Positions 8,435 to 58,708 of a stretch of DNA of 64,000 nucleotides are shown one piece after another. Both the position numbers and the translations under genes were made by a program. The DNA lies in the NCBI GenBank assembly GCA_028287465.1, contig JAQBPO010000031.1, forward strand, positions 124,001 through 188,000, read 5' to 3'. The notes beneath the pieces were generated by a model. That model was not told where the DNA came from and ran no database searches. It saw nothing but the letters and a program-made list of their open reading frames with translations. This stretch comes from Fibrobacterota bacterium (GTDB lineage Bacteria > Fibrobacterota > Fibrobacteria > UBA11236). Position 1 is the first letter of the stretch. The number at the start of each line of letters is the position of its first letter.

Positions 8435-8441
8435 GTGCCGG

Positions 8442-9182
8442 TTACCTGTCCGCCCAGATGGCGTCCGCGACGGCCTCGGCGATCTTGCGCATGCCGCGGT
8501 TCCCGGGATGCCATTGCACGGCCGGATCCTTGAACAGGGTGGAGTCGCCGTAGTTGAGGGTATCCGCGGCCACGGCCGTGATATCGACGAATTCGTAGGC
8601 GGGGAACTCCTTGAGGGCCTGGTTGATCGCCTCCGCATGGGGCTGGTCCGCGCTCTTCTCGCCCCAAGCGCTCACGCAGTAGGCATGCGGGACGCCGGCG
8701 TCCTTGAGGCCTTGGAGGAGCATCCGGTATTGGGCGGTCATCTTCCCGCTGCGGAGTTCCACGTCCCCGCTATGCTCGGACAGTTGAACCACCACGAAGC
8801 GCGGGCGCATTTCGCGCACCTGGTCCATATTGTGGATCTGCTCATCGAGGGCGCCGTCGCAATCCGGGCACCTTCGCGCGGCGACCGTACCCACCGCTTC
8901 CATGCCCTTTTCCTTCAGGATGCGCACCGTCTGATGCACGTAATCCGAATCCGGGGCGGTGGCCGCCATGCCCCAATTCCCCGTCCAATGGAAGGCGGGC
9001 GCGGGCGCGTTGAGGGTGATGCTGTTTCCCATGAATAGGATGTCCGGTCCCTTGTGCTGGGTTTCGAATACGCAGCCGGATACGATTCCCACGGCGATGA
9101 AAGCGATAGCGCGCAACCCCATGACTCCCGCCGGAGGCGGGCCGGCGTTCCGGAATCTACGGATTTCCATCCTCACCTGCAT
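8442..9182 (-). CDS. SGNH/GDSL-type esterase lipoprotein
   Basis: About 246 residues. A hydrophobic stretch ends in the lipobox IVSGC, so the mature protein should be lipid-anchored. Block I is ILFMGNSITLN, where GNS replaces the GDS of classic lipases, as in several SGNH subfamilies. GNWG and VVVQLSEHSGD are plausible blocks II and III. The C-terminal DPAVQWHPGNRGM supplies the Asp and His of the catalytic site. Such enzymes deacylate lipids, glycans or xylan-type esters. Start: ATG at 9182 with an upstream GAGG. A GTG at 9209, or an inner Met directly before the signal core, are alternatives. It sits in the glycan block, consistent with glycan de-esterification. Confidence 0.75.
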   Translation of the reverse strand: MQVRMEIRRFRNAGPPPAGVMGLRAIAFIAVGIVSGCVFETQHKGPDILFMGNSITLNAPAPAFHWTGNWGMAATAPDSDYVHQTVRILKEKGMEAVGTVAARRCPDCDGALDEQIHNMDQVREMRPRFVVVQLSEHSGDVELRSGKMTAQYRMLLQGLKDAGVPHAYCVSAWGEKSADQPHAEAINQALKEFPAYEFVDITAVAADTLNYGDSTLFKDPAVQWHPGNRGMRKIAEAVADAIWADR

Positions 9183-20291: not shown

Positions 20292-20335
20292 CTCATCGCG
20301 CCGCGATGAGGGCTCATCATCGAGCGATGATGAGC
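20292..20335. terminator. Two adjacent perfect hairpins between convergent genes
   Basis: Two palindromes lie side by side. The first has 9-bp arms at 20292-20300 and 20302-20310 with one spacer base. The second has 11-bp arms at 20312-20322 and 20325-20335 with a 2-nt spacer. Both contain the word CTCATC/GATGAG. The second covers the last codons and stop of the PorZ-like gene. They may act as a bidirectional transcription end or RNA-stabilising structure; no T-tract is present. Confidence 0.5.
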
Positions 20336-22578
20336 TTCCCGTTCTTGCTTTCCTTCGATGAGCGCACCACGTAGAAGTAAACGCCTTCCCTCACGCGCTC
20401 GCCCGCCTGGTTGCGGCCGTTCCATTGGATCTGATCCCCTGACCCCGCGGCCAACCTGGCATGGTAGACCACGGATCCCGATTGGGTGAGCACCTGGATT
20501 TCGCTGCCCGGGGTCAACTTGTCGAAAACCACCTTTTCGTGCTTCGCCAGGAAGGGATTGGGAAAGACCTTGATGCCGGAAAGGTCGGTCCTGTCCGGCC
20601 GGGAGGCGCTCTCGAACCGGGACACCCCTTTCTCCGTAGCCACCCAAACGTCCCCGTTGTCCTGATTCACGTCAAGATGATAGATGGATTCCGACAACAA
20701 TCCATCGTTCAGGCCTAATTTCGAAAAGGCATGCGAGAGGCTGTCCCTGCCCGGGGTTATCGTGAGCACTCCGCCTTCCCTGCATCCGGCCCATAGGTGG
20801 CCTTGGGGATCGATATCCAGGCTGAAGCAGCTTGTACCGGAGAAGCCCTCAAGCGCCTTGAGGGATTGGATGGTTTCCGCCTTGAATGCCACGGATGGAA
20901 TATAGAGAAGGTCGGATCCCTCGGTCGTCACCCAGAAATTCCCCCGTCGATCCATCTTGCCGACGAGCGGGGTTTTTCCGGACGTTTCCAGTCCGGCCAA
21001 TCGGTTGACGGGGTTGAGGGCTACCGAGGAGCCCCCGTCCTCGATCGCGAACGCATCGACCCCCCTTTCCGTAACCACGACCAGGGTGTCTCCTACGATC
21101 TGGAGGTCCTTGGGCTCTTCTTCATTGGTGTTCGGCTCGAAGCACGTGGTGGTCCCCTTCGCCAGGTCATAATAGCCGATGCGATACTTCTTTTTATCCA
21201 GGAATATCCCGATCCAGATTCCTTTATCCTTATAGATCGCTTGGGACATGAGGGCGGGATAATTCGGATCCGCTTCCACGGCGGATGGGATACAGGAGGT
21301 TTTCGCATCGAACACCTTTTCCTCCCCGTTTATCCATGCGTGGAAACCGGATCCCCACGATCCTACGAAGAAAGCGCTCTTGCCGGTGACCGAAAGGGTA
21401 TGGAGGCCGCGGCGCTCCGCCTCCGCCGCATCATAGCCGATCGACAAGGTGGCGGCGGTTTTCCAGGTCCGGCCATCCAGGGTGTAGACATTCGGATTGC
21501 CCCAACTGAAGACGCCGTTCCTGTTGGCCCGGATGGACGTGAACTCGCCCAGGGGAAGGCTTTCCCGGTTTATCACCAGGTCGAAGCCGTCCGGACCGCC
21601 ATTGCCGGAATAGAACCGGCACATCTGGCTTTGGGAACCCATATACCAGACGCCTCGGTAGGAAGCGAGGACCTCCATGTGGAACGGATTGGGGTGGACT
21701 TCCCCGTCCACCAGGATTTTCCCGAACTTGCTTGCCCGCGCCTTGCCGTAGGCCCCTCCGCTGTATTCGCTCGTGATGCCTCCGGGGCCGTACTTGAGGA
21801 ACCCATGCGCGAGCAGCACGTTGTCGAAATCATCCGGCGCGGATCCGATGATATCCGCCGCCACCTTGGCCGAATCCCGGGTGAAGGCCGTATCTCCGGG
21901 GGTCCCGGTGGGATCGTAGAAGAGGGCGCCGGCGGAGCCGGGCACCAGGGACCAGATGCCCGGGTTGAAGATGTTGATCTTGGGATCGGTCATCAATCTG
22001 TCCAGGTGCAGGACGGATTTGAAAATGCCCTTGTTGGTGCCCGCGAAGAGCGTGTCCCCGACGAACAGGATGCCGTTCACGGAGAGGCCGCTGGACCCGC
22101 CCATCTTGGAAACGTTGGCGTCGGCGATCTTCTTTTTCACGTTGAAGAAGCTCAACCCCTTCTCGCTGCCCAGCACCAGGTAACCGGAGCGGTACTCCAT
22201 CGCGCGCTTGTTCATCTTCCAGCCGGCGGCCCGGTAGGACGTCCCGAGGATCTCCCAATCGTCCGTCCCGGGGGCGTAACGGTACAGGTAACCCAGCTGG
22301 GAAGCCGCGTAGACTTCGCCGTCCGGACCGGAAGCCAGGGCGCGGACGCCCACGTCCCTGAGGCCTTCCGTATTACGGTAGACCTTCTCCGACATGTCCG
22401 GCTCGACCGTGCGGATGCCGCCCCCGGTCGCCACGAAAAGGCGGCCGCGGGCGGTCTCCAGATCGTTGATCTCCTCCAGATGGGTGAAGCTGGTCCAATC
22501 GCCCACCAGGGCGTGCGACAGGGTCGCGCCCAGGAGGGCCAACGCGGAAAAGGACTGGGCTATTTTTGCGATGCGCAC
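20317..22578 (-). CDS. PorZ-like two-propeller protein with T9SS-type C-terminal domain
   Basis: A 753-residue exported protein with signal peptide (ALALLGATLSHA). Just after it, VGDWTSFTHLEEIND and GRLFVATGGGIRTVE resemble the N-terminal propeller of PorZ and of two-component-regulator propellers. Blade-like repeats continue to ~residue 660 (for example HLWAGCREGGVLT and GDVWVATEKGVSRFE). The end is a textbook T9SS/FlgD-like module: KVFPNPFLAKHEKVVF, then IQWNGRNQAGERVREGVYFY. In Porphyromonas, PorZ is a surface T9SS component that binds anionic LPS. GTG start at 22578 with AGGGGG at 6 nt. It sits 27 bp downstream of a WbpB-like gene. Other large surface propellers cannot be excluded. Confidence 0.7.
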   Translation of the reverse strand: MRIAKIAQSFSALALLGATLSHALVGDWTSFTHLEEINDLETARGRLFVATGGGIRTVEPDMSEKVYRNTEGLRDVGVRALASGPDGEVYAASQLGYLYRYAPGTDDWEILGTSYRAAGWKMNKRAMEYRSGYLVLGSEKGLSFFNVKKKIADANVSKMGGSSGLSVNGILFVGDTLFAGTNKGIFKSVLHLDRLMTDPKINIFNPGIWSLVPGSAGALFYDPTGTPGDTAFTRDSAKVAADIIGSAPDDFDNVLLAHGFLKYGPGGITSEYSGGAYGKARASKFGKILVDGEVHPNPFHMEVLASYRGVWYMGSQSQMCRFYSGNGGPDGFDLVINRESLPLGEFTSIRANRNGVFSWGNPNVYTLDGRTWKTAATLSIGYDAAEAERRGLHTLSVTGKSAFFVGSWGSGFHAWINGEEKVFDAKTSCIPSAVEADPNYPALMSQAIYKDKGIWIGIFLDKKKYRIGYYDLAKGTTTCFEPNTNEEEPKDLQIVGDTLVVVTERGVDAFAIEDGGSSVALNPVNRLAGLETSGKTPLVGKMDRRGNFWVTTEGSDLLYIPSVAFKAETIQSLKALEGFSGTSCFSLDIDPQGHLWAGCREGGVLTITPGRDSLSHAFSKLGLNDGLLSESIYHLDVNQDNGDVWVATEKGVSRFESASRPDRTDLSGIKVFPNPFLAKHEKVVFDKLTPGSEIQVLTQSGSVVYHARLAAGSGDQIQWNGRNQAGERVREGVYFYVVRSSKESKNGKLIIAR

Positions 22579-25910: not shown

Positions 25911-28877
25911 ATGTTCCATAAAGGCATCCTCCTAGGGCTGGCCGCGGCGCTTTCCGGCCTATGCCACGGGGCCGAACTCAATCCCTCCGGACTGATCGAC
26001 TTCGGAGGCGGGAGCGCCGGCGTTCCCGTGCTCGGTTTCCTCAAGCTTCCGGCCTCCGCGCGCGGCATCGGCATGGGCGCCGCCTCCCTGACCACGGACG
26101 AAGAAGCCTCGATGATCCAGGCCAATCCGGCCCTGTTGGCGCTGGCGGCCGACTACTACTACTCCGTTTCCCACGCCGAGATCCTGGGCGAGTTCCGCCA
26201 CGAGAACCTGGCGTTCACATGGCCAACGCCGTCCTACGGCAACTTCGGCGGGTCCGCGAATATCCTGGCGGCCACCAGCTTCGAGGACGCCCGCGATATC
26301 GACGAGATCCCGGCCAACCCCACGGCCTACGACATCGCCTTGGGGCTGTCCTACGCGAAGTCGCTCTGGGAGGATCGCGTGAGCGCGGGCGGGCGCCTCG
26401 ATCTCATACGAAGCAAGGTGGACGAAGCCGAGGCCACCGGTTACGCCTTGAACGCGGGCCTGATCTTCCTCCTGGTTTCGGACCTGCGCATCGCCCTGAC
26501 CTTGAACAATCTGTCCCACGGCATACGGTACGACGCCTCTTCGGATTCCCCCGTGGAGCCCCTTCCCCTGGGCGTCGGCGTGGAGGTCGGCAAGCCGCTG
26601 CTCGATTCCCGCTGGTCCGCCCATGTGGGCGCCGTCCAGGGCAACGAGGGCATCGCCCATTTCTACGCCGGCCTGGAATGGCGCCTGATCAAATACCTGA
26701 TGGTGAGGGCGGGATACGAGGGCTCCAGCCAGGATAGGGAACTGGGCGCCTGGAGCGGCCTGTCCACGGGACTCGGGATCAAGTACGACCGATTCACCTT
26801 CGACTACGGCTACAAATCCCTGGGCCCGCTCGGCGACTACCACGCCTTCACCCTCAACTATTCCCGCAAGTCCAAGTTCCGCGATCGCGACGAGATCCTG
26901 TTGGAGCGGGCCCTTGGGAAATACCACCAAGGCAGGTACAAATCCGCCCTGGGCCTGGCGCGCGCCGCGATCGCCGCCAACCCCTATAACTTCAAGGCCC
27001 AGGCCCTGGCGCAAAAGCTCCAGTTGGAGCTGGACCGGGAGGACGGCCTGGCCGTCACCATCGCCTATACCGCGAATACGGACGGAAGGCTGAGCTCGGA
27101 GTGGCGCGATGGCCGTCCCGTCGGCGGCCTGGCGCGCCGCAAGACCAAGCTCATCGAGCTGAAAGGGGCCTACGAGAACGTACTGGCCCTGGACGCGGGC
27201 AACCTCCTCAGTCCCGCATCCGGATCGGACAAGGACAAATACGTGTTCGGCGCCTATGCCCAGATGCCCTATGACGCGGTCAATATGGGACCGCGGGAAT
27301 CCGGGTTGGGGGAACGTTTGGATCCGCGCCTGCCCTTCCTCGCTTCCCAGGACCCGATCGGCGGAGGCCGATCCGGCATCCTCACGGAAAAGATCCTGAA
27401 ACTCAAGCACGGCGCGGAAGTGCTGGTGCTCGGGGCCATGTCGCCCAAATGGCCGGAAGGGGCCGCGGTGGGCCCCGTCGATCTGGAGGGCATCCAGGAA
27501 GCGGTCCGGCGGCGGGCGGGAGAGCCGAAGAACGGCCGGATCATGGTCCTCCTCCTGCACGGGAACCTCAAAGAGGCGCATGAAATCGCGGGGAAGATCC
27601 TCGACCTGGACGTGATCATCCTCTCCGGCGAATCCCAGGCCCTGGGCAGCCCCATGAAGTCCGGTAAGACGCTGATCTGCTCGCCGGGCAGGGGCGGAAC
27701 GCACTTGGGCGAACTCACCTTGCTCATCGACAAGGACGGCCACCGGACATCCTTCCGGCATTTCCTGGTGCCCCTGGACGGCTCCATCCCGGAAGATCCG
27801 CAGTTGAAGAAATTCCTGGAGCCCGTAACGGTGGATCCCAACGCGTTCAACATGGACGAATACGACGACGACTACCAGGCCCAGGTCATCGCCTATATCC
27901 GGTCCAAGGAGCCCTCGGCGGGAGGCGACCTTTTCCTCCGCGATCTCCGCACCGGAAACGACTACCTCGTGCCCGCGCCGGGGCTGCTGTGCTCGCGCCC
28001 CATCCTCGGCTATGGCAAGAACCGCGTCGCCTTCGCCGGCGAGGACGGATCGGGAGCCCGCGAGGTCTATGGCTTCGAACCCGGCATCAACCGCCTCGAT
28101 ACCCTGACCCGCCTGGGCGGCCGCGCGGGGGACATGCGCTGGATCCTGCGCAACAACGCGGTCCTCGCGGTCTATGAGGCGGGCGGAAAGAGCGATCTCT
28201 ACCGCATCGATCCCTGGAGCCGCGAGGTGCGCGACCTGACCAAGGGGCGCTTCGGGGCCGTCATGGGATTCGATGCGACCAAATCCGGCGAACGCCTGGC
28301 CGTGAACGCATGGGACGGCAAGGCGAGCACCTTGTGGATCACGAACCTGGAATTGGAGTCCCCGCTCGCGATCGCGTCGGACAGGCTCTTCCCGGGTTCG
28401 CCGCGGTTCAACCCGCAAGGGGATCGGCTCGCGTTCCTCGCGTTCACGGAAGGGGACAGCCTCGCCGCTCCTTCCCCGGCGAAGAAGGACCCGGCGAAGC
28501 GAGCCGCTGGAACGGCGCCCATCGGGGAATTGCGGATTTTCGATTTCACCACCAAGGCGTTCCTGACGGGCACCCGGCAGAGCCGCGTCCGCAGTTTCTC
28601 CTGGTCCGCGGACGGCAAGCGCATCTACTATTCCGCCGGGGTGAACCTGGGCGACATCAACGCCTTCCATCTGGATTCCCTGACCTTGAACAAGGTCACG
28701 GCGCCGCAGGCCACGCCGCGGAACGAGGAGAATCCCGTTCCCAAGGTCCTGGGCGGAGTCGACGGCATGCTGTTCGAAGCCACGGCGGCGGGCGCGCGCA
28801 AGATCCTGTGGATGGACCTGAGGACCCGCAAGGATACCGTCCTCATCGATTCCGCGGGTTGGAACTCCCTGAAATGA
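25911..28877 (+). CDS. PorV/PorQ-like barrel fused to degenerate 5'-nucleotidase-like domain and propeller
   Basis: A 988-residue exported protein. After the signal peptide (LAAALSGLCHGAE), residues ~25-330 match PorV/PorQ-type outer-membrane barrels: FLKLPASARGIGMGAASLTTD, QANPALLAL, and the closing strand FTFDYGYKSLGPLGDYH. A short TPR-like helical segment follows (~330-375). Residues ~380-650 follow the order of a 5'-nucleotidase/metallophosphatase domain (TIAYTANTDGRL, VLALDAGNLLS, VLLLHGNLKEAHEIAGKI), but the metal ligands are mostly replaced (Asn for Asp in GN, no NHE, no GHxH). The rest is a TolB-like propeller (SPRFNPQGDRLAF, FSWSADGKRIYY). PorV shuttles T9SS cargo in Bacteroidota. 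I have not seen this exact fusion described. A rho-independent terminator follows. Confidence 0.75.
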   Translation: MFHKGILLGLAAALSGLCHGAELNPSGLIDFGGGSAGVPVLGFLKLPASARGIGMGAASLTTDEEASMIQANPALLALAADYYYSVSHAEILGEFRHENLAFTWPTPSYGNFGGSANILAATSFEDARDIDEIPANPTAYDIALGLSYAKSLWEDRVSAGGRLDLIRSKVDEAEATGYALNAGLIFLLVSDLRIALTLNNLSHGIRYDASSDSPVEPLPLGVGVEVGKPLLDSRWSAHVGAVQGNEGIAHFYAGLEWRLIKYLMVRAGYEGSSQDRELGAWSGLSTGLGIKYDRFTFDYGYKSLGPLGDYHAFTLNYSRKSKFRDRDEILLERALGKYHQGRYKSALGLARAAIAANPYNFKAQALAQKLQLELDREDGLAVTIAYTANTDGRLSSEWRDGRPVGGLARRKTKLIELKGAYENVLALDAGNLLSPASGSDKDKYVFGAYAQMPYDAVNMGPRESGLGERLDPRLPFLASQDPIGGGRSGILTEKILKLKHGAEVLVLGAMSPKWPEGAAVGPVDLEGIQEAVRRRAGEPKNGRIMVLLLHGNLKEAHEIAGKILDLDVIILSGESQALGSPMKSGKTLICSPGRGGTHLGELTLLIDKDGHRTSFRHFLVPLDGSIPEDPQLKKFLEPVTVDPNAFNMDEYDDDYQAQVIAYIRSKEPSAGGDLFLRDLRTGNDYLVPAPGLLCSRPILGYGKNRVAFAGEDGSGAREVYGFEPGINRLDTLTRLGGRAGDMRWILRNNAVLAVYEAGGKSDLYRIDPWSREVRDLTKGRFGAVMGFDATKSGERLAVNAWDGKASTLWITNLELESPLAIASDRLFPGSPRFNPQGDRLAFLAFTEGDSLAAPSPAKKDPAKRAAGTAPIGELRIFDFTTKAFLTGTRQSRVRSFSWSADGKRIYYSAGVNLGDINAFHLDSLTLNKVTAPQATPRNEENPVPKVLGGVDGMLFEATAAGARKILWMDLRTRKDTVLIDSAGWNSLK

Positions 28878-45005: not shown

Positions 45006-46685
<1,680 letters not shown>

Positions 46686-46880: not shown

Positions 46881-46934
46881 ATGATGCGCCGACCGAAGAA
46901 TTCGCGTCAACCCCGTTCAGGAGAACCCGCATGA
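46881..46934 (+). CDS. Possible 17-residue leader peptide overlapping the next start
   Basis: A short frame opens with ATGATG at 46881, has GAGGG at 5 nt upstream, and ends at TGA 46932-46934, which overlaps the ATG of the downstream secreted-protein gene at 46931. The peptide is basic (MMRRPKNSRQPRSGEPA). The overlap is the arrangement expected for translational coupling. The downstream gene also has its own AGGAGA site, which lies inside this frame. It could be chance; no regulatory amino-acid run is seen. Confidence 0.3.
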   Translation: MMRRPKNSRQPRSGEPA

Positions 46935-48133
46935 TGTCACTTACGCTTCGCCCGAAGTCCATGGCCGCGCTCGGCCTCTTCGTGCTCGTACCGGTCCTCG
47001 CCCTGCCCGGCATCGGCCGCGGCCAGGTCTCGATCGATCCGGTCCAGGTCTATACCGTGTCCCCGAATCCCGCGCCGGCGGGCGCCCGGTTCACCCTGTC
47101 GCTCAACGGCGGCGCCTTCCCCTGCGTAACGTCCTTCTCGCGGGAGAGCGTCACCGTCACCGGCAACCGGATCGATCTGACCTTCCAGGCCAATAGCGGG
47201 ATCATGGTCCCGGTCGACGATCCCTATGCGGCGAAAGCCATCCCGCCCATCTGCATGGTCGACGACATGGCCGTCCAGCCCGCCATTCCCCAGCCCATCG
47301 ATACCGTACCCATCTTCCGCGCCAATGTCCCCGCCTTCGCCATGCCGGCGCTCAAGGCCGGCGCGTACGAAGTGTGGGCCACCCAGGTCTATGCCTGCCA
47401 GTTCACCCAGCCCGCCTGCCTGGTCAAGTCCCAGCCGCAATACGCCGGAACCCTCAAGACGGGCGCCGCCACGAGGGAAGGGTGGTTCCTGAAGAACGAG
47501 GAGACCCTGGCCGACAAGGCCTTCCCGATGCAGCTCCTGAACAACCTCTACGGCAATTGCCAGACCACCTTTACGCATCTGACCCATGCCGAGGCCGCGG
47601 GAAACATCTCGGTCAGCTTCGTGGTCGAGACGGATAAGAACCGCGTATGCGTCCAGGACATAATCCCCTGGGGCCCGGTCGTCGAGATGCCCGCCCTCAA
47701 GGCCGGGATCTATCCGGTCTATGTGCAGACCCTGCCTGCCTGCCTTTTCACGGAGCCCAGATGCATGATCGACCTCATTCCCAACCCCAGGCCCTCCGAC
47801 ACCCTGGTCGTGACCAAGAGCCTCGCGATCCTGATGTCCTCCCTGCGCGCCGGCGGATTGACCGCGGCCTTCCAGGGTTCCAGGGTGGACTTCGACCTTC
47901 CAAGAGACAACGGTAATGGCAAGGCCGCCGACCGCGATTGGCGCGCGGAACTCATGACCCTGTCCGGCCGACGCCTGGCGTTCGGCGCGGCCCATGCCCG
48001 TGCGGGCGAGCGTGCGGGCCTGGATCTGGCCGTACGGCCCGGACCCGGCGTCTACCTGATTCGCCTGACCGCGGCCGACGGCGAATCGCACATTCTTCCC
48101 GTCCATTCCCTTCCCGTCATCGGCGGGATCTGA
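46931..48133 (+). CDS. Secreted Cys-rich repeat protein with T9SS-like tail (paralogue 1)
   Basis: A 400-residue protein: signal peptide (ALGLFVLVPVLALPGIGRG), two copies of a ~120-residue domain, and a C-terminal beta module. Each domain has four Cys: one in GAFPCVTSF or GNCQTTF, one before the IPPICMVDD or NRVCVQD segment, and two in YACQFTQPAC or PACLFTEPRC. A near-invariant (M)PALKAG-x-Y-x-V precedes the last pair. The tail (WRAELMTLSGRRLAF ... GVYLIRLTAADGES) looks like a T9SS sorting domain. I do not recognise the repeated domain; a disulfide-bonded beta-sandwich at the cell surface is the best guess. It is the first gene of a tandem trio. Confidence 0.7.
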   Translation: MMSLTLRPKSMAALGLFVLVPVLALPGIGRGQVSIDPVQVYTVSPNPAPAGARFTLSLNGGAFPCVTSFSRESVTVTGNRIDLTFQANSGIMVPVDDPYAAKAIPPICMVDDMAVQPAIPQPIDTVPIFRANVPAFAMPALKAGAYEVWATQVYACQFTQPACLVKSQPQYAGTLKTGAATREGWFLKNEETLADKAFPMQLLNNLYGNCQTTFTHLTHAEAAGNISVSFVVETDKNRVCVQDIIPWGPVVEMPALKAGIYPVYVQTLPACLFTEPRCMIDLIPNPRPSDTLVVTKSLAILMSSLRAGGLTAAFQGSRVDFDLPRDNGNGKAADRDWRAELMTLSGRRLAFGAAHARAGERAGLDLAVRPGPGVYLIRLTAADGESHILPVHSLPVIGGI

Positions 48134-48171
48134 TCGAACCACCCGGGGCAATCCCGAAAGGAGTACCACGC

Positions 48172-49254
48172 ATGATACCCAAGATACGCAAGGCGGCCTC
48201 TATGGCCGCCTCCCTGGCCCCTTCCCTGTTCCTGGCGGCCGCCCTCGGGTCCGGCCTGCCCGCCCATGCGGCTTCGTCCACTACGGACCCCGTGGTGAAA
48301 GCCATCACCTACGCCATCAACCCCTCCAAGGCGGATGCCGGCAAGGATTTCGAACTGGACCTGTTGAGCTACGGCTTCAACTGCGGCACCTCCTTCGACA
48401 ACCTTGCGGTGAACGCGGCAGGGAACGTGCTCACCTTGTCCTTCCTGGATCATGAGAAGCCCGGGGTCATCTGCCCCGCCATCTACAAGCCCTACGGGCC
48501 CGCCTTCAAGGTCGCCGGGCTCAAGGCCGGCGCCTACCAGGTCAAGGCCTACCGCCTTCCCGCATGCTATCCCTGCAAGATGGCGGGCGAAACCTCGGAA
48601 GCCGGCACCCTGACCGTCGGGCCCGCAACGGAGCGCACGGGGTGGTTCCTCAAGGAAGGCACGGCGTACGCGGGCAAGCCCTTCTCCCTCCAGCTCCTGA
48701 ACGAGAAGCTCGGGAATTGCGGGACGTCCTTCTCGCATAAGAGCATATCCGCCCAGCAGGGCGCCATCTACGCCAGCTTCCTGGTGGAGGATGACCCCAA
48801 CATCGTCTGCATCGCCGATATCCATCCATACGGCCCCGCCTTCGATATGCAGGCCCTGAAAGCCGGCGCCTATCCCGTCTACGTCACCGAGATGCTCCCA
48901 TGCCAGGTGACCGCGCCCATCTGCGCCGTGAAGTTGATGCCCATCCTGTCCGATACCCTGATCGTGGCGCAGAGCCTTTCCGTCCTCGCTTCGGACCTGC
49001 GCGCCAATGGCCTCCGGATCGAGTTGAACGGGTCGCGCGCGGCCATGCTGCTTCCCGCCGGGATCGGCGGGACCTGGAAGGCGGAGCTGCTCACCCTGAA
49101 CGGCCGCCGCCTGGCGGCGGGTTCGGCGATCGCCCTGGGCGGAGAACGCGCCGAGTTCGACCTGGGCCTGAAGCCGGAACGCGGGATCTACCTGCTGCGG
49201 GTTTCCGCGCCGGATGGGGAAACCCATATGCTGCCCATCATCCGTAAAGATTAG
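48172..49254 (+). CDS. Secreted Cys-rich repeat protein with T9SS-like tail (paralogue 2)
   Basis: A 360-residue paralogue of the preceding gene: signal peptide (LFLAAALGSGLPAHA), two domains and a T9SS-like tail (WKAELLTLNGRRLAA ... GIYLLRVSAPDGETH). Domain 1 has FNCGTSFDNL, VICPAIYKPYGPAF, GLKAGAYQVKAY and PACYPCK. Domain 2 has GNCGTSFSHK, NIVCIADIHPYGPAF, ALKAGAYPVYVT and LPCQVTAPIC. The four-Cys plan and the YGPAF/LKAGAY words are shared with both neighbours. Start ATG 48172 with GAAAGGAG at 8 nt. It lies 38 bp after paralogue 1. Function unknown. Confidence 0.7.
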   Translation: MIPKIRKAASMAASLAPSLFLAAALGSGLPAHAASSTTDPVVKAITYAINPSKADAGKDFELDLLSYGFNCGTSFDNLAVNAAGNVLTLSFLDHEKPGVICPAIYKPYGPAFKVAGLKAGAYQVKAYRLPACYPCKMAGETSEAGTLTVGPATERTGWFLKEGTAYAGKPFSLQLLNEKLGNCGTSFSHKSISAQQGAIYASFLVEDDPNIVCIADIHPYGPAFDMQALKAGAYPVYVTEMLPCQVTAPICAVKLMPILSDTLIVAQSLSVLASDLRANGLRIELNGSRAAMLLPAGIGGTWKAELLTLNGRRLAAGSAIALGGERAEFDLGLKPERGIYLLRVSAPDGETHMLPIIRKD

Positions 49255-49268
49255 ACCCGGAGGATACC

Positions 49269-50225
49269 ATGCGCCACCTTCCATCCCTTCCGCGCCGCGC
49301 CTTCCACCGCGCCATCGCGGCCGCCCTGCTCGCGGGAGCGGCCTGCCTGGCCCAGACCGACCCTTCCGCGGCCGTGGCGCCGAGGGAAGCCGAATCCGGC
49401 ATCGCCTTCCGGGTCACGGTTTCCGGCAAGACCACCTTGTGCAATCCCCAATTCTCGCGCCGCCAGGCGCTTTCCGGGAACGGCACCTTGGATCTCTCGG
49501 TGATGGCCGTGAACGATCCGGTGGCCAAGTGCACCGCCGGGGAGCATGATTACCATACGGACTTCGAGATCCCCGCCCTCAAGGCCGGGAAATACGCCGT
49601 GACCATCGCCCTGAATCCTGCCTGCCTGTATGAAACCCCCATGTGCAAGATCGCGGTCATCCGGGAATCCGCCGGCGACCTCGTGGTCCGGGATTCCGCA
49701 TCCCTGGCCTATGCCATAAGGCCCAAGCGCGTGGCGGCGGGCAAGCCCTTCGAGCTCTTCCTGACCGGCAAGGACTTCACCTGCGGGAACGTTTTCTCCG
49801 ACCTTTCGGCGGCCGTGGATGGGAACGTGGTGCGCGTGCGATTCACGGACAAGCCGAATCCGGCCGCGTTGTGCCCGGCGGTCCTCAAGGACTACGGCCC
49901 CACCTTCCAGGTCCCGGCCCTCGCGGCGGGAACCTACCAGGTCTATGCCTTGCGATCCCCCTATTGTTCCTCCGCCGGCCCATGCCCGCTCGCCCTGGTC
50001 GCGCCGCAATTGTCCGGCGCCTTGGCGGCGGAGGGGGCGGATGCGATCGCGCCTTCGTCCAAGGCGCTATCGCCGGCGGCCGCCGCGGGCCGCGCCGTGC
50101 GCGTCGATGCCCGAGGGGGGAAGGTCACGGCGGCCTGGAAGGGCGGCTCCCGCGACCTTACGGGCAAGGGCGGTCATCCCGGGAAAACCCATCCGCGCGC
50201 GGACCGCGCGGACGGCACGAGGTGA
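49269..50225 (+). CDS. Secreted Cys-rich repeat protein lacking a full T9SS-like tail (paralogue 3)
   Basis: A 318-residue third paralogue: signal peptide (AIAAALLAGAACLAQ) and two repeats. These have TTLCNPQF, AKCTAGEHDYHTDF, PALKAGKYAV and PACLYETPMC; then FTCGNVF, ALCPAVLKDYGPTF, PALAAGTYQVYA and PYCSSAGPC. Unlike the others it ends in a Gly/Lys/Arg-rich segment (GKGGHPGKTHPRADRADGTR) where the sorting-domain strands should be, so the tail is truncated or frame-shifted. It may stay periplasmic, or use a different route. The ATG follows CGGAGG at 5 nt. It ends 4 bp before the DUF6174 gene. Confidence 0.65.
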   Translation: MRHLPSLPRRAFHRAIAAALLAGAACLAQTDPSAAVAPREAESGIAFRVTVSGKTTLCNPQFSRRQALSGNGTLDLSVMAVNDPVAKCTAGEHDYHTDFEIPALKAGKYAVTIALNPACLYETPMCKIAVIRESAGDLVVRDSASLAYAIRPKRVAAGKPFELFLTGKDFTCGNVFSDLSAAVDGNVVRVRFTDKPNPAALCPAVLKDYGPTFQVPALAAGTYQVYALRSPYCSSAGPCPLALVAPQLSGALAAEGADAIAPSSKALSPAAAAGRAVRVDARGGKVTAAWKGGSRDLTGKGGHPGKTHPRADRADGTR

Positions 50226-50229
50226 TATC

Positions 50230-50718
50230 ATGCGTCTACCCTTCCTCAACATGTCGCGTCCCATCCTTTCCTCCGCCTTGATCTTCGCGGCCTTCCTGCC
50301 GGCAGCCCTGGCGCTATCCGGCTGCGTGACGGATGCGTCCGGCCGGGTCGATCTGTCCGGGCCCAGGGCGAAATGGAAGGCGAATGAACCCGCGGAATAC
50401 GCCTACACCATCCGCCGGTTTTGCGAATGCATCCCGGGAACCGTCATGGTCACGGCCAACCGGGATTCCGTGGTGAGCGCCTACGCGCCGGGCTTCGTGT
50501 TCGAGGAGTTGGGAGACAAGCAACGCTATTCCATCGATTCCCTTTTCTCGGAGGTGGAGACCGCCCTGGCCCGATCGTATGACACGCGCAGCGTCGGCTT
50601 CGACGACATGTACGGGTTTCCCGATTCGGTGAGCATCGATTTCGAGAAGCAGGTGGCGGACGAGGAGTTCAGCCTCTTCATCCAGGATTTCCGGAAGCTC
50701 GGATTCCAGATCGACTGA
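50230..50718 (+). CDS. DUF6174 family lipoprotein
   Basis: A 162-residue protein with a lipoprotein signal (ILSSALIFAAFLPAALALSGC|VTD). The mature domain has the DUF6174 plan: AEYAYTIRRFCECIPGTVMVT, a central SIDSLFSEVETALAR, and the C-terminal YGFPDSVSIDFEKQVADEEFSLFI. The CEC pair near the N-terminus is typical. The function of the family is unknown. The ATG at 50230 has GAGGTGAT upstream and lies 4 bp from the end of paralogue 3, so it belongs to the same operon and may act with the three Cys-rich proteins at the envelope. Confidence 0.85.
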   Translation: MRLPFLNMSRPILSSALIFAAFLPAALALSGCVTDASGRVDLSGPRAKWKANEPAEYAYTIRRFCECIPGTVMVTANRDSVVSAYAPGFVFEELGDKQRYSIDSLFSEVETALARSYDTRSVGFDDMYGFPDSVSIDFEKQVADEEFSLFIQDFRKLGFQID

Positions 50719-50783: not shown

Positions 50784-53162
50784 TCAGGGTCCGGGAAGGG
50801 TGGCCGGTACCGCAAGCGGCAGATCGAGATGGAATTCCGCGCCCTGGCCAGGCGCGCTCTCTGCCCAGACGCGGCCGCCCATCCGGTCCATGGCCTTCCT
50901 TACCATGGCCAGTCCCACTCCGGTGCCGGGGAATTCCTCGGACCGGTGCAATCGGTGGAACATCTTGAAGATGTTCTCGTAGTGCTTCATATCGAAACCG
51001 GTCCCGTTATCGCGCACCGAAAGGATGTACCGGTCCCCATCGATACGGGATCGGATCCCGATGACGGAAGGCCGGCGCGTACCGGAGAACTTCACGGCAT
51101 TGTCGATGAGGTTCCGGAGCGCGATGGCCAGGCCTTCCTTGTCGGCGAGGACCGCCCCGGGAACGAGGTCCAGGGACAGGTCGATCCGCTCCGGATCGGG
51201 ATTCAGATCGGCGAGGATCCCTTCCACGGCTTTGGGCACGTCTTGAGGGGCGATGGCCAGGGCGCGACGCTCCATCCTCGAATAGGCGAGCATGTCGTCG
51301 ATCAAGGCCTGCATGTGGGCCACCCCGGCGCGGATATTATCGAGGAATCCGCGGCCGTCCTCGTCCAGCTTTTCCGAGTAATCCATCCTGAGGAGCTGGC
51401 TGTACCCGTCGATGCCGCGGAGAGGCGCCTTGAGATCGTGCGAAACGGAATAGCTGAAGGCCTCCAATTCGCGGTTCTTTTCGGCCAGCTCGGCCGTGCG
51501 CGCCGCGACCCGCTTTTCCAGTTCGGCATTGAGACGATGCAGGTCGTCCTCGGCGCGCTTCCGTTCGGAGATGTCCTGCACCACCCCGACCACCCGCACG
51601 GCCTTTCCGTCCTTCATCACCGCTTCGCCGTGGCTCAGGATCCATAGATCCCTGCCTTTGGCCGTTTTCACCGGGAACTCGATCTTCCAGGATTTCCCCT
51701 GATGGATGGCGGCGTCGATATGCGCTTCCACCTCCGGGCGCGCCTCGGGCGCGACGTATTCCATGACCGCTTCCAAGGTCAGGGTTGCCCTCGGATCGAT
51801 CTCCATGATCTTCCTGTGTTCTTCCGAGAAATGCGGCTTTCCCGTGATCAGGTCCAGTTCCCAGCCTCCGACCTTGGCGATATCGCTCGTACGCCGGAGC
51901 AGGTCGAGGGTCAGGACCAAGGCGTTCTCGGCCACCTTCCTCTCGTGGATGTCCACCAGGGAGCCGGCCATCCGGACCAGATTTCCGTTATCGTCCCACT
52001 GGGCCTTTCCCTGGGCGCTCATCCACCGGTACTCGCCGGATGCCATTCGGAGCCGGTATTCCGCATAGTAAGGCGCGTGCCGGTCGAGGTACGCCTTCAG
52101 CGCCTCATTCACCGTCCGCCGGTCCTCCGGATGGATGAAGGCTTCGAAGGCTTCCCGCGAGGTGGGCAGATCCCGCAGGGGCAGCCCGAACATTTCAGCG
52201 ACCCGGGGAGAGAAGGTGATTTTACCCTGCCCGGGATTCCAGTCCCAGATTCCCGCGGCGGAGCCTTCCACCACCAGCCGGTACCGCTCTTCGCTGGCCC
52301 TGAGCGCGTCTTCGTTGGCCTTCCTTTCGGTAATGTCCCGCGCCACCGCATAAATACGGTCCTCATCGGGAATCGCCATCACGTTCCATTCCAACCATCG
52401 GTAGGATCCGTCCTTGGCCCGCCATCGATTGACGAAACCGATCGCGGTATTGCCGGCCTGAAGCAGCTGCATCTCCAGGCGCGACGATTCCAGATCGTCG
52501 GGGTGGATATGGTCCATGAACGGGACCCGCCTCAACTCATCCACGGTGTAACCCAGGACGCGCTCGAACTGGCGGTTGAGGCGGAAGAACCGTCCTTGGA
52601 GGTCGGCCGAGCAGATCATGTCCGGGGAAAGCGCGAAAATCCGGCTGATCTCCTGCTCGGCCTGCTTCCGCGCGGATATGTCCTGCATGGCCCCGATCAT
52701 GCGCACGCCCCGGCCGGCCGCGTCGCGCAGGACGAAGCCGCGATCCAGGATGTCGGCGTAGCTGCCGTCGCGGCGCCGGAACCGGTATTCATCCGACCAG
52801 GATTGCCCGGTCCCGCCGATGACGGAATGGATCCCGTCGAGCACACGTTGGTAATCCTCCGGGTGCACCCGCTGGCTCCAGGATTCGCTACCCGGTTCGA
52901 TCTCTTCCCGGGGATAACCGAACAAGGAGGTGAAGTTGGCGTTCCACCGGACCGAGTCGGTGTTGAGGTCCCAATCCCAGACGACATCATTGGTGGCCCG
53001 CGAGATGATTTCGAACCTTTCGAGGCTGTCCCGGTGCGAAGCCTCGGCTAGGTGGAGGTCCTCCAGCATGCCGAGCAAGGCGCGGCGAGTCCGTTCCGAA
53101 TCCTCCAGGGATGTACGGCCGGCATCGACCTCTTCATCGACGGTTTCCGGGATCGTGCTCAT
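50784..53162 (-). CDS. Multi-PAS sensor histidine kinase
   Basis: A 792-residue soluble kinase. Four PAS/PAC sensor units run from ~45 to 540 (SRATNDVVWDWDLNTDSVRW; FALSPDMICSADLQG; VVEGSAAGIWDWNPG; DIAKVGGWELDLITG). A coiled-coil linker follows (LNAELEKRVAARTAELAEKNRELE). The phosphoacceptor region is SYSVSHDLKAPLRGIDGY, the phytochrome-type HisKA. ATP-binding boxes are LIDNAVKF, DNGTGFD, IFKMFHRLH and GTGVGLAM. No transmembrane segment is seen, so it senses a cytoplasmic signal. Its start overlaps the end of the GAF-PAS gene (ATGA). It is the last gene of a leftward four-gene signalling operon. Confidence 0.95.
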   Translation of the reverse strand: MSTIPETVDEEVDAGRTSLEDSERTRRALLGMLEDLHLAEASHRDSLERFEIISRATNDVVWDWDLNTDSVRWNANFTSLFGYPREEIEPGSESWSQRVHPEDYQRVLDGIHSVIGGTGQSWSDEYRFRRRDGSYADILDRGFVLRDAAGRGVRMIGAMQDISARKQAEQEISRIFALSPDMICSADLQGRFFRLNRQFERVLGYTVDELRRVPFMDHIHPDDLESSRLEMQLLQAGNTAIGFVNRWRAKDGSYRWLEWNVMAIPDEDRIYAVARDITERKANEDALRASEERYRLVVEGSAAGIWDWNPGQGKITFSPRVAEMFGLPLRDLPTSREAFEAFIHPEDRRTVNEALKAYLDRHAPYYAEYRLRMASGEYRWMSAQGKAQWDDNGNLVRMAGSLVDIHERKVAENALVLTLDLLRRTSDIAKVGGWELDLITGKPHFSEEHRKIMEIDPRATLTLEAVMEYVAPEARPEVEAHIDAAIHQGKSWKIEFPVKTAKGRDLWILSHGEAVMKDGKAVRVVGVVQDISERKRAEDDLHRLNAELEKRVAARTAELAEKNRELEAFSYSVSHDLKAPLRGIDGYSQLLRMDYSEKLDEDGRGFLDNIRAGVAHMQALIDDMLAYSRMERRALAIAPQDVPKAVEGILADLNPDPERIDLSLDLVPGAVLADKEGLAIALRNLIDNAVKFSGTRRPSVIGIRSRIDGDRYILSVRDNGTGFDMKHYENIFKMFHRLHRSEEFPGTGVGLAMVRKAMDRMGGRVWAESAPGQGAEFHLDLPLAVPATLPGP

Positions 53163-54580
53163 GATCGCCCTTGTCCGGCGTAGCGGGGCGGGCGCCCCAT
53201 CTCAACGAGCAGCCCGTTGACCTCGGCTTTGAGTTCCTGCACGCGCTCTTCCCGGCCCACGGTCACGTTCTGCCAACGGAGCAGTTCATCCAGCTGTTCG
53301 CGGATCTGCTTTTCCGATCGCTTGCGGTTGGTGATGTCGTGGATATAGATGGACAGGCCCTGGGGGGAGGGATAGATATGGTTCTCGAACCATCGGCCGT
53401 TGGGCGGGAAATAATCCTCGGTGACCGCGGCCTCCTGCTCCGCCATCGCCCTTTCGCAGGCGAGCCTGAACCTGCCGTCCCCTCCCTCGGGGAATTCCTC
53501 CCATACGTTCCGGCCCAGGAGGCTTTCCGGGGTCCGCCCCAGGATCTGCGCCGCCTTCGCGTTCACGAAGACGTAGCGCCAGTCCGCGTCCAGGGCCACG
53601 AACGCGTCCGAGATGCGATCGTAGATCCTGCGCCGCTCGGCCTCGTCCCGCTTGCGGACGGTCAGATCCTCGATGAGGGCGATCAGTTCCCCCATGGGCC
53701 CGTCCAGGGCGGCGACCCTGACCTTGATGGGAACGCGGTGCCCGTCCTTGTGGAAATACTCCTTTTCGAACGAGGAGGTGATGCCCGATGCCGAGAGCTC
53801 CGCTACGGCCTTGAGGTCCTTCGCTTCCCATTCCGGCGGCGTCATGGCCGCCCAATTCACGAGCCCGGCCGCCAATTCCTCGCGGGAATAGCCCACCATT
53901 TGCAGGTACCGATCGTTGGCCTCCCTGATACGCCCATCGGCATGGGCGATGATGACGCCGATGATGTTCGAGTCCATCAGCCTGCGGTAACGGCCCTCGC
54001 TGACCCGGAGGGCGGCCTCGGTCCGGTGCCGCATGATGGCGATGGCCGCGAGGTGGGTGAAGACCTCGATGAGGCGGGTATGCCTGGCGGTGGGGATCCC
54101 CGGCTCGCGGAAATACATGGCGAAGGTCGCCACCACCTTGCGCTTGTCGTCGAAAACGGGCGTGGACCAGCAGGCATGCAGGTCGTGGGGGAGGGCGAAT
54201 TGCCGGTAATCGTCCCATAGGGGATCGGACCCGATGTCCTCGACGATGACCTGCCTGCCTATATAGGCCGCCGTGCCGCAGGACCCGGCCCGGGGGCCGA
54301 TGGCGCTGCCGTCGATGGCGCGCAGGTATTCCGGGGGCAGGCTGGGCGCGGCGCCGTGGCGCACGTGGACGCCGTCGGGATCCAAAAGCAGGATGGAGCA
54401 AAGCATGTCCCCGGACTGGGCCTCGCAGACGCGGAGCATGGCGTCCAGGGTATCCGCCAGCGGAGCGCCGGTGGCGACCATCTCCAGGATCCGGATCTGC
54501 CCGGATTCCAGGCTTTCCCGGCCCTGCGCGCCGGAATCCCCCCGGGAGGCTTCCGTTTCAGGATCCGTTATCATTTCCAT
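53159..54580 (-). CDS. GAF-PAS-PAS sensor protein without a kinase domain
   Basis: A 473-residue protein. A GAF domain covers ~25-190 (ILLLDPDGVHVRHGAAPSLP, then GSCGTAAYIGRQVIVEDI). Two PAS domains follow (LMDSNIIGVIIAHADGRIREAN; ISDAFVALDADWRYVFVN). The C-terminal ~55 residues form a helix or coiled coil (KQIREQLDELLRWQNVTVGREERVQEL). There is no HisKA, HATPase, GGDEF or other output domain. It probably regulates a partner kinase in trans; the translational overlap with the multi-PAS kinase makes that kinase the obvious partner. The start ATG at 54580 has AGGA at 6 nt. Confidence 0.9.
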   Translation of the reverse strand: MEMITDPETEASRGDSGAQGRESLESGQIRILEMVATGAPLADTLDAMLRVCEAQSGDMLCSILLLDPDGVHVRHGAAPSLPPEYLRAIDGSAIGPRAGSCGTAAYIGRQVIVEDIGSDPLWDDYRQFALPHDLHACWSTPVFDDKRKVVATFAMYFREPGIPTARHTRLIEVFTHLAAIAIMRHRTEAALRVSEGRYRRLMDSNIIGVIIAHADGRIREANDRYLQMVGYSREELAAGLVNWAAMTPPEWEAKDLKAVAELSASGITSSFEKEYFHKDGHRVPIKVRVAALDGPMGELIALIEDLTVRKRDEAERRRIYDRISDAFVALDADWRYVFVNAKAAQILGRTPESLLGRNVWEEFPEGGDGRFRLACERAMAEQEAAVTEDYFPPNGRWFENHIYPSPQGLSIYIHDITNRKRSEKQIREQLDELLRWQNVTVGREERVQELKAEVNGLLVEMGRPPRYAGQGRS

Positions 54581-54620
54581 ATGCGATCCTCGTATCGGCT
54601 GATGCTGAATTCAAGGCGGA

Positions 54621-57065
54621 TCATGTTTTCCCGACCTTGCGGCAGGCTTTCGCGAGCAGGGCGTCCAGCTGGGATTTCTCGAACGGTTTCGCCAGGAACC
54701 CCAGGGCGTCCGGGGGATGCCTGGACTCGTGCTCGGAGTCCGGCCGATAGCCGGAGGAAAGGATGACCAGGCCCGCCGGATTGATCAGGCGGATTTCCCG
54801 GAAGGTTTCCCATCCGCTCATTCCCGGCATCACCATATCCAGGATGATCAGATCGATTTCGCGCCACTTTCCCCGGTAAAGGGCGAGGGCGTCCATCCCG
54901 TTTTCCGCCGTGGCCACGGTATGCCCCTCCTTGCCGAGCATATCCTTCAGCATGCCTCGAAGCAGGGGCTCGTCATCCACGACCAGGATGCGCAACCGGC
55001 AGTCCATGTCCTGCCCGCCGTCGGAGTCATGGATTTCCGGCTTGGTTTCCTGGTACAACGGGAAATGGATGTGGAAGGTGGTCCCCCGGCCGGACTCGCT
55101 TTCCGCGGAAATCGATCCATTGTGGAGGCCCACCGTCCCGAAGACCGAGGCCAGCCCCATGCCGGTCCCCTTCCCCACGGGTTTGGTGGTGAAGAAGGGC
55201 TCGAAGAGGCGCTTCTTCACGGCTTGGTCCATGCCGCAACCGGTATCCCGCACGGAAAGGTGCACGTAGCGCCCGCGCGGGAGGCCGGTGCTGTTGGCCT
55301 TGGCCGTGGCGCTCCCGCCCCGGTAATGGTACGGATCGGGGTCTTCCAGGGATACCGTTTCGGTCGCGAACTCCAGGACTCCCCCTTCCGGCATGGCATC
55401 CCGGGCGTTCAGGGCCAGGTTGAGCAGGGCGTTCTGGATCTGGGACGGATCCCCAATCAAGGTCGCCGGGTCCGCTTCCAGGCGCGTCCTCACCTCGATG
55501 CGTTTGTCGAGGCTCCGTCCGAGCATCTCCACGGTTTCGCGGATGAGGCCATGCAGATCGATGGGGGTTTTCCGGTATTGTCCCTGCCGGGAAAAGGCCA
55601 GGAGGCTGCGGGTGAGATCCCTCGACCGCTTGGCCGCCTGCACTATGGTCTCGATGAAACGTTTGGATTCCTCGTCTTCGGTCTTGGCCCCCAGCAGTTC
55701 GGCGTATCCCAGGATGGCCGCCAGCTGGTTGTTGAAATCGTGGGCGATGCCTCCGGCCAGCCTGCCGATGGCGACCATCTTGTCCTGTTGCCGCAGCTGT
55801 TCCTCATTGCGCTTGCGATCCGTCATGTCCAGGGTGATGCCCAGCAACGCTTCCACCGCTCCGGTTTTGCCGCGGATGGGCGCGGCATGGATCTCCAGCC
55901 AATGCCGGGTCCCCTTGCGTCCTTCCATTTCGAATTCCAGGATGCCGCTCGCCCCCGCCTGTACCCGCTGATTCAGTTCCCTGAAAGCGTCGCGGTATTC
56001 CGAGGCGATGAAATCGATGAAATCCGTCCGCCGCGCTTCTTCGATCGAGTCCAACTCCAGCATGGCGAGGCCGGCCGGATTTATCTCCAGGATCCGCCCT
56101 TCCCGGTCGAGCAGCTTTACGCATTCCGGTTCCGTCTCGAAGATGATCCTGAAACGGGCCTCGCTTTCCCGCAACGCATTCCTCTCCCGTTGCGCCTGGC
56201 TGCGGTAGAACGCGCTTTCCACCGCCAAGGGAAGGCGCTGGAGGTAGCCCGGGGATTTGACGAGGTAATCCATGGCGCCGAGCTTGACGGCCTGGATGGC
56301 CATCTCCTCATTGCCCTGCCCGGTGGCGACCAGAACGGGGACATCCAGCTTGCGGATCCGGTTGAACTCCTTGAGCAGCTCCAGGGCGTCCACGCCCGTC
56401 CGGCGGAAGTCGATGAGGATCACGTCCACGTCCGTGACGGGTCCCTTCCGGGGAAGGCGCGCCAAGGCCGAAGCCGCGCCATCCACCGCTTCGAGGCGGA
56501 TGAAAGGAGCATGTTTGGCCAGGTGCCCGCGGAGGGATTCCAAGTCCGGAACGGTCGGGTCGACATAAAGAAGCCGGATCGGCCGGGTCCGCAGTTCCGA
56601 GCGGCTCCGGAAATTCCGGACGGCCATGGAAATGGCGTCCGGCAACCGGTCCCAATACCCCGGTTTTTTCGGCAGATAATCATCCGCGCCGGCGCGGACC
56701 GCGGAGAGCACGGCCTCCTCGTCCCCTTCTCCGGTCAGTACCACCACGGGAAGCGGCAAGGATCGATCCCGGACCTGGGCGAGCACGTTGAGTCCGCTTC
56801 CGTCCGGAAGGTGCATGTCCAGCAGGAGCAGATCGTAACCCGGCGGTTCCCCCCTGGCCAGCCCCATCTCGAATTCGTCCAGGTGCGCGTAGGCTTCGGC
56901 CACGGTGCCCACGATTTCGAGTTCGATTCCCGGATCCGAGCGCAAGAGCCCTCGCCGGGTCAGGTCGGCGTCGGCCGGATCATCCTCGAGGTACAGGATC
57001 CTCGCGGTGGCCACCTCGGGTTGGAAAACATCGACCGCGGTATCTCCCGATTCTTCCATTTCCAT
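54621..57065 (-). CDS. Hybrid histidine kinase: REC-REC-PAS-HisKA-HATPase-REC
   Basis: An 814-residue cytoplasmic hybrid kinase. Receiver 1 (ILYLEDDPADADLTRRGL; acceptor Asp in LLLLDMHLPDGSG) is followed by receiver 2 (VDVILIDFRRTGVDALE). A PAS domain comes next (FETEPECVKLLDREGRILEIN). HisKA is LAGGIAHDFNNQLAAILGY. The catalytic domain has LNLALNARDAMP, DTGCGMD, and FEPFFTTKPVGKGTGMGLA. A terminal receiver carries LRILVVDDEPLLRGML and LIILDMVMPGMSGWE. The first receiver implies it is itself a target of an upstream kinase, and the last could pass phosphate onward. No DNA-binding output is fused to it. It is 6 bp downstream of a single-domain receiver. Confidence 0.95.
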   Translation of the reverse strand: MEMEESGDTAVDVFQPEVATARILYLEDDPADADLTRRGLLRSDPGIELEIVGTVAEAYAHLDEFEMGLARGEPPGYDLLLLDMHLPDGSGLNVLAQVRDRSLPLPVVVLTGEGDEEAVLSAVRAGADDYLPKKPGYWDRLPDAISMAVRNFRSRSELRTRPIRLLYVDPTVPDLESLRGHLAKHAPFIRLEAVDGAASALARLPRKGPVTDVDVILIDFRRTGVDALELLKEFNRIRKLDVPVLVATGQGNEEMAIQAVKLGAMDYLVKSPGYLQRLPLAVESAFYRSQAQRERNALRESEARFRIIFETEPECVKLLDREGRILEINPAGLAMLELDSIEEARRTDFIDFIASEYRDAFRELNQRVQAGASGILEFEMEGRKGTRHWLEIHAAPIRGKTGAVEALLGITLDMTDRKRNEEQLRQQDKMVAIGRLAGGIAHDFNNQLAAILGYAELLGAKTEDEESKRFIETIVQAAKRSRDLTRSLLAFSRQGQYRKTPIDLHGLIRETVEMLGRSLDKRIEVRTRLEADPATLIGDPSQIQNALLNLALNARDAMPEGGVLEFATETVSLEDPDPYHYRGGSATAKANSTGLPRGRYVHLSVRDTGCGMDQAVKKRLFEPFFTTKPVGKGTGMGLASVFGTVGLHNGSISAESESGRGTTFHIHFPLYQETKPEIHDSDGGQDMDCRLRILVVDDEPLLRGMLKDMLGKEGHTVATAENGMDALALYRGKWREIDLIILDMVMPGMSGWETFREIRLINPAGLVILSSGYRPDSEHESRHPPDALGFLAKPFEKSQLDALLAKACRKVGKT

Positions 57066-57494: not shown

Positions 57495-57677
57495 GCTTTA
57501 CTTCCCCGGGTTAGGAAAAGCGGCGTCTCGACGGTGAAGCCCGTCACGGTTAAATCTAAGTAAAGCGCATCCCCGAAATCTAGGAAGATCCTTCCCATCT
57601 CCAATGGCCCCTTGGCCTTGCGCCATCCATGACCCGCCTTTGCCATGATCTGCCAAATCGGGTAATCCGGGGACATT

Positions 57678-57705
57678 TTGACCTCCCGGTTTCCTTACGT
57701 ATCTT
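57678..57705 (+). promoter_or_regulatory. Candidate promoter for pdxA
   Basis: TTGACC (57678-57683) and TATCTT (57700-57705) are 16 nt apart. The start codon at 57722 is ~17 nt from the -10, so the 5' leader would be very short, just covering the AGGAGG site. Confidence 0.4.
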
Positions 57706-57721
57706 ATCAGGAGGCGGAACC

Positions 57722-58708
57722 ATGAACAAAGTCCTCATCACCATGGGCGATCCCGCCGGCATCGGGCCGGAAGTGATCGTCAAATGCCTCGCCAAGATCC
57801 AGCTGCAGGAGGATCTCGAACCCATCATTGTGGGCGAACGCGAGATCCTGGAGGAGACCGCCAAGGCCCTCGGCCTCAAGATCCTGTTCTGCCCGGACGA
57901 CTCCCCGCGCCATGGCCGCATCAAGGTGCGCAGCATGGACCTGGTGCGCCACGGGGATTTCGAGCTCGGCAAGGTCTCGGCCATGTGCGGGAACGCCGCC
58001 TACCATTACTTCGCCCATGCGGTGGAGTCCTGCCTGGCCGGCGAAGCCCAGGCGATCGTCACCGCGCCCCTCCACAAAGAAGCCATGAACCTGGCGGGCC
58101 ACCATTACGTGGGCCATACCGACATCCTGGAAAAGATGACCGGGGCCGAGACCGTGATCATGGCCCTGGTGCACCCCAAGATCATCGTCAGCCACGTGAC
58201 CGATCACGTGCCCCTGCGGAAAGCCCTCGATTACATCACCATCCCCCGCATCAAGGAGGTGGTGAAGCTCACCTGGAAGACCCTGGTGGCCACGCGCACG
58301 CATACCCCGCGCATCGCCCTCGCCGGCGTCAATCCCCATGCGGGGGAGAACGGCCTGTTCGGCCGGGAGGAGATCGAAATCCTGCGTCCCGCCATGGAGG
58401 AATTGCGCGCGGAGGGTTTCCCCACCTTCGGCCCCCTGCCGGGGGACACCGTATTCCTGCAGGCCCTGAAGGGTCGCTTCGACGGCGTGCTCGCGATGTA
58501 CCATGATCAAGGGTTCGGACCCATGAAGACCGTGGACATGGCCAACGGAGTCAACTGCACCTTGGGTCTTCCGTTCGTGCGGACCTCGCCCGATCACGGG
58601 ACGGCCTTCGAGATAGCCGGAAGCGGTCTGGCCGAACCGGAGTCGATGCGCGGGGCCTGGGACCTGGCTGTCCAGCTTTTGAAAGCCCAGGCCCTTCAGC
58701 AGGAATAG
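57722..58708 (+). CDS. pdxA: 4-hydroxythreonine-4-phosphate dehydrogenase
   Basis: A 328-residue PdxA enzyme of the DXP-dependent vitamin B6 pathway; it oxidises 4-phosphohydroxy-threonine using NAD. MGDPAGIGPEVIVK is the N-terminal signature. TAPLHKEAMNLAGHHYVGHTDIL holds the substrate Lys and a metal His. LAGVNPHAGENGLFGREE and YHDQGFGPMKT hold the remaining ligands, followed by PFVRTSPDHGTAFEIAG. All are present at normal spacing. It should be a cytoplasmic metal-dependent dimer. The start is set by AGGAGG seven nt before the ATG. It is divergent from the signalling operon. Confidence 0.95.
   Translation: MNKVLITMGDPAGIGPEVIVKCLAKIQLQEDLEPIIVGEREILEETAKALGLKILFCPDDSPRHGRIKVRSMDLVRHGDFELGKVSAMCGNAAYHYFAHAVESCLAGEAQAIVTAPLHKEAMNLAGHHYVGHTDILEKMTGAETVIMALVHPKIIVSHVTDHVPLRKALDYITIPRIKEVVKLTWKTLVATRTHTPRIALAGVNPHAGENGLFGREEIEILRPAMEELRAEGFPTFGPLPGDTVFLQALKGRFDGVLAMYHDQGFGPMKTVDMANGVNCTLGLPFVRTSPDHGTAFEIAGSGLAEPESMRGAWDLAVQLLKAQALQQE

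Follow-up and report, generated by a model that had tools for sequence, protein, structure and literature searches.

Three adjacent genes of a Fibrobacterota bacterium encode tandem copies of an uncatalogued, predicted Ig-like domain with paired-cysteine loops

What kind of protein is encoded by three neighbouring genes whose products are built largely from copies of a single cysteine-containing domain, and what might such proteins do at the cell surface? The question is raised by a locus at 46931-50225 of the window, i.e., the whole 64,000-nucleotide stretch of Fibrobacterota DNA analysed here. Open reading frames and alignment uphold what an earlier note on this DNA had described, namely three co-directional genes with six copies of one domain. 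Gene 1 (46931-48133, + strand; P0001) encodes 400 residues, with domain A at residues ~39-178, which contains an insert of ~35 residues, domain C at ~181-297, and then a divergent T9SS-type C-terminal domain. Gene 2 (48172-49254, + strand; P0002) encodes 360 residues, with domain B at ~44-151, domain C at ~154-268, and a T9SS-type C-terminal domain that runs to residue 360; its start was set at 48172, the program-made list of open reading frames having placed it too early, at 47938. Gene 3 (49269-50225, + strand; P0003) encodes 318 residues, with domain D at ~31-143, domain E at ~143-255, and a short tail rather than a full T9SS domain. The N-termini of all three products, judged by eye, resemble Sec signals, which agrees with the signal peptides claimed previously. 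Between pairs of orthologues of the cluster genes dN/dS was 0.28-0.47, indicating that these genes are under purifying selection and are therefore real, constrained genes. A promoter and terminator scan gave no signal exceeding chance.

The domain is ~115 residues long, occurs twice in each gene, and has four conserved cysteines per copy (C1 to C4). A MAFFT alignment of the six copies shows no variation in these cysteines, in the F of C-x3-F, or in L-x-A-G-x-Y-x-V, and to this extent the motif order given in the earlier note holds. Other parts of that pattern are looser: YGP-x-F and PALKAG are each exact in only three of the six copies (the remaining three have WGPVV, NVPAF, and YHTDF in place of the former), and the last cysteine pair, described as P-x-C-x4-6-P-x-C, is really C-x(2-6)-C, the preceding P-x not being universal (PACYPC in the first domain of P0002). 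That the six copies are one domain was confirmed with a profile made from other genomes only, which matched every copy with iE values of 4e-30 to 1e-39 and scored none of 2000 shuffled sequences. A search of the 5.8-Mb genome found these six copies only.

Scans of the proteins and profiles against Pfam, NCBIfam, and PDB sequences gave no curated family that claims the domain, matching the first impression that no known domain was recognisable. The nearest curated family was IPT/TIG (PF01833), to which one member aligned collinearly over residues 4-87, the greater part of its length, with an E value of 8e-4; the score of this best member, 19.8 bits, is below the Pfam gathering cut-off of 20.9 bits. 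Only two of 20 members matched IPT/TIG, the second more weakly, and the locus's own six copies did not match it. An Ig-like strand plan, as in TIG, is predicted for the new domain, which also carries paired-cysteine loops, not a known TIG feature. An AlphaFold2 model computed from a 34-row alignment is all-beta with eight strands (pLDDT 92.6, pTM 0.84), and the predicted fold is an all-beta Ig-like sandwich. A Foldseek search of this model against PDB and BFVD found nothing below E 0.1, and the best VIA-align score was Z 4.3 (YcnI), the closest solved chains being mostly Ig-like or other beta sandwiches, all with Z ≤4.3. We take these low scores to mean that the model has no clear solved relative, not that its fold is new. 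The profile and structure searches proposed in the earlier note thus leave the repeat outside the curated families searched, although TIG similarity and the modelled sandwich make it recognisably Ig-like. We conclude that this is a genuine domain family, one that the databases lack, and that it is best regarded as a separate Ig-like family.

A tree of 52 domains sorted the copies by position into types A to E: type A is the first domain of gene 1, B the first of gene 2, C the second of both, and D and E make up gene 3. Each of the other five genomes of this genus has A, B, and C united in one gene of ~470-540 residues (one genome has two such genes), whereas in the window they are divided over two genes as A+C and B+C. 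Genes of D+E composition are likewise present in 5/5 of the other genomes. More widely, relatives vary from one to three domains per gene and from one to five genes per cluster. The earlier note had seen tandem duplication with moderate divergence; a recent duplication was rejected on the basis of this tree, the position-specific types being common to the genus. Judged by the same tree, the trio is an old locus in which the type of a domain goes with its position.

The left flank of the cluster is a divergently oriented EttA-like ABC-F gene (45006-46685, - strand), a neighbour that the cluster also has in six relatives. To the right lies pdxA (57629-58708, + strand), which in three of these (L034, L035, and L038) comes next after the cluster; in the window a DUF6174 gene and, on the opposite strand, three sensor-kinase-like genes stand between the two. 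These last are three consecutive genes at 50784-57065 (- strand), of sensor-kinase or PAS type by eye, and three relatives have little or nothing there. The DUF6174 gene (50230-50718, + strand; PF19671, E 1.6e-23), directly downstream of gene 3, encodes a lipoprotein with an LSGC lipobox. When conservation of the trio plus DUF6174 in other Fibrobacterota was checked, as had been proposed, the relatives' DUF6174 genes proved to be on other contigs; DUF6174 was therefore rejected as a conserved partner, and its position beside gene 3 is incidental. No paper naming DUF6174 was found in the literature searched.

With a broadened profile, the domain was detected in 23 of 168 Fibrobacterota genomes, belonging to the window's order and at least five other families, and occurring in 2-, 4-, and 6-8-Cys forms. 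Within the genus, each of the six genomes has six to 12 copies, and in the sister genus two of the four genomes have one or two. In other Fibrobacterota, proteins combine the domain with CarboxypepD_reg, with BsuPI, and, in one case, with a Por_Secre_tail above cut-off. Multi-domain T9SS-type surface proteins with CarboxypepD_reg (PF13620) thus incorporate relatives of the domain, but this module is missing from the three genes of the window, which consist of the new domain and tail alone. In a contig scan whose patterns fit only close relatives, the matching named records were Fibrobacteres/Fibrobacteria MAGs. A plasmid collection queried with P0002, an alignment consensus, and a generic two-Cys Ig consensus returned nothing usable, and viral contigs contained no relatives of the domain. 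The domain is accordingly known from several Fibrobacterota lineages; our searches covered Fibrobacterota genomes, plasmids, and viral contigs, so that confinement to the phylum is not claimed.

The tails of the proteins bear on their destination. T9SS-like tails had been claimed for two of the three genes and were found in genes 1 and 2 only. These tails share with the T9SS type A sorting domain (TIGR04183, PF18962) a C-terminal position and weak profile matches, and they are modelled as a similar sandwich; the difference is that both score below the sequence cut-off of TIGR04183 (E 0.058 for gene 1 and 0.16 for gene 2, versus 0.0071 for the best orthologue). A Pfam scan of the two tails, PF18962 included, gave no match. 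A profile of the tails matched five places in the same genome that TIGR04183 also finds. The tail is modelled as a sandwich of seven strands (pLDDT 84), and a seven-strand Ig-like sandwich has been reported for the C-terminal domains of T9SS cargo proteins, which can be specific to a species (PMC11285876). The model matched those of RemA (8gl6; Z 7.7, 75 residues, rmsd 3.0), mirolase (8qb1; Z 7.7, 74 residues, rmsd 2.7), and NucA (8glk; Z 7.3, 73 residues, rmsd 3.0) over nearly the full domain length, although FnIII-like folds score equally. The genome also encodes a T9SS translocon, with matches to SprA (E 2e-149) and the PorV family (E 4.6e-44), and has 47 Por_Secre_tail matches. Because tails of T9SS type occur together with SprA and PorV, Sec plus T9SS surface export is the best model, and T9SS export of the gene 1 and gene 2 products is likely.

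Gene 3 differs in having just a short W-x-G...G-[RK] end. Its tail (50125-50225) and the ends of the relatives' D+E genes (L034, L035, L037-L039) have a short motif of about W-x-G-x4-D/L-x-x-G-[RK], the gene 3 version being W-x-G-x4-L-x-G-[RK]; either the tail is truncated here, or the motif serves as a short signal for sorting. Elsewhere in the window, T9SS-type tails are marked by a TIGR04183 match at 20326-20568 (within 20317-22578, - strand) and by a match to the gene 1/2 tail profile at 5675-5872 (within 5633-8638, - strand). There is also a PorV-family match (NF033709, E 3.9e-31) at 26031-26864 (+ strand) in the open reading frame 25911-28877, which at 988 residues, against 326 positions in the model, is possibly a fusion.

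The cysteines follow a simple pattern. Counts were made over 81 domain copies, loop 1 holding C1, loop 2 C2, and loop 3 C3 and C4. Loops 1 and 2 have equal numbers of cysteines in 80 of the 81 copies (1:1 in 69, 2:2 in seven, 3:3 in four), the exception being one 1:3 copy; loop 3 has none or two, again in 80 of 81. None of 20,000 shuffles reached the observed equality of loops 1 and 2, a figure that is not a probability since shuffles ignore relatedness. In three copies of the relative L038, C3 and C4 are jointly absent while C1 and C2 are kept. In 6-8-Cys copies (L043, L044, L045, L069, L075, L076, and L079), CC or CCC in loop 1 goes with Cx4C or CxxCxC in loop 2, with matched numbers. Such matched gains, together with joint loss of C3 and C4, are what C1-C2 and C3-C4 pairing predicts, and strongly suggest that the disulfides pair in this way; the two bonds would lock those loops that lie at one end of the predicted sandwich. 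The disulfide prediction called for in the earlier note can thus be made from cysteine counts. The four-Cys layout on which that note was based is one variant among the three forms. Separately, certain proteins with the 2-Cys form (in L070, L074, L085, and L043:4007-5116) have an extra C-x-R-x-P-C pair, e.g., CVRAPC, in an inserted loop.

We propose, with moderate confidence, that the products of the three genes are secreted proteins made of tandem Ig-like domains stapled by disulfides, exported by the T9SS in the case of genes 1 and 2, and that they serve as adhesive or structural stalks. The products would cross the inner membrane via Sec, and their domains would oxidise in the periplasm to form the C1-C2 and C3-C4 staples. 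The T9SS would then export the gene 1 and gene 2 products and hold them on the outer surface through the C-terminal sandwich domain, whereas the gene 3 product, having no such domain, may remain within the envelope or be retained through the other two. The least certain step is the last, in which rigid tandem modules at the surface would act as adhesive or structural stalk proteins. The function of the domain is most likely an ordinary one, that of a structural or adhesive module. The trio may, as first suggested, form a specialised surface system.

Different roles for the cysteines and for the whole proteins can be envisaged. Instead of pairing as disulfides, the four cysteines could make up a metal or redox site, and it speaks for such a site that the AlphaFold2 strand order places C34, C64, C95, and C102 all in loops at a single end of the sandwich and that 6-8-Cys copies have CCC and CxxCxC motifs. 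We nevertheless consider it improbable, because C3 and C4 vanish together while C1 and C2 stay, because cysteines of loops 1 and 2 are gained in equal numbers, as pairs would be, and because export would probably bring the proteins into oxidising surroundings. It is a long shot that the paired-Cys loops, besides acting as staples, would form inter-protein disulfides or a thiol/metal site that ties surface proteins to one another or to some structure of the envelope, the 2-, 4-, and 6-8-Cys forms then being graded versions of this linkage across the phylum.

The domains might also be secreted Ig-like protease inhibitors, with locked loops that enter the active site and shield the cell from foreign peptidases or its own exported ones. 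The one hint of this comes from distant relatives, in which proteins with the 2-Cys form also contain BsuPI, the intracellular proteinase inhibitor domain (PF12690, E 1e-13 to 4e-3); BsuPI has an Ig-like inhibitor fold, and homologues occur in surface proteins (PMC3901451). BsuPI is Ig-like and secreted, as is predicted for the Cys-loop domain, but it is a separate neighbouring domain: PF12690 had no match within the Cys-loop domain in 34- and 20-copy scans, and neither the proteins of the window nor the ABC gene of the 4-Cys form that was scanned contains BsuPI. Moreover, the loops differ in length and sequence and have no common reactive site, and among the genes flanking the cluster, most of them unannotated, none was recognised as encoding a peptidase. 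Inhibition therefore seems unlikely to us, and as the weaker rival it yields to an adhesive or structural role. Rather unlikely, too, is a surface coat or spacer that has no specific binding role and is free to differ in length between species. The lack of a ligand-site signature would fit a coat of this kind, as would the varying numbers of domains per gene and genes per cluster among relatives; however, retention of types A to E across the genus and purifying selection on the genes both go beyond what filler needs.

The matching of cysteines between loops 1 and 2, with none or two in loop 3, supplies a simple disulfide-predicting rule that can be tested on one recombinant domain. The locus also shows that T9SS-type tails too divergent for standard models sit on proteins otherwise annotated only as hypothetical. 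Together, these results mean that the surface proteome of a phylum that has been little studied gains a domain family so far absent from the catalogues.
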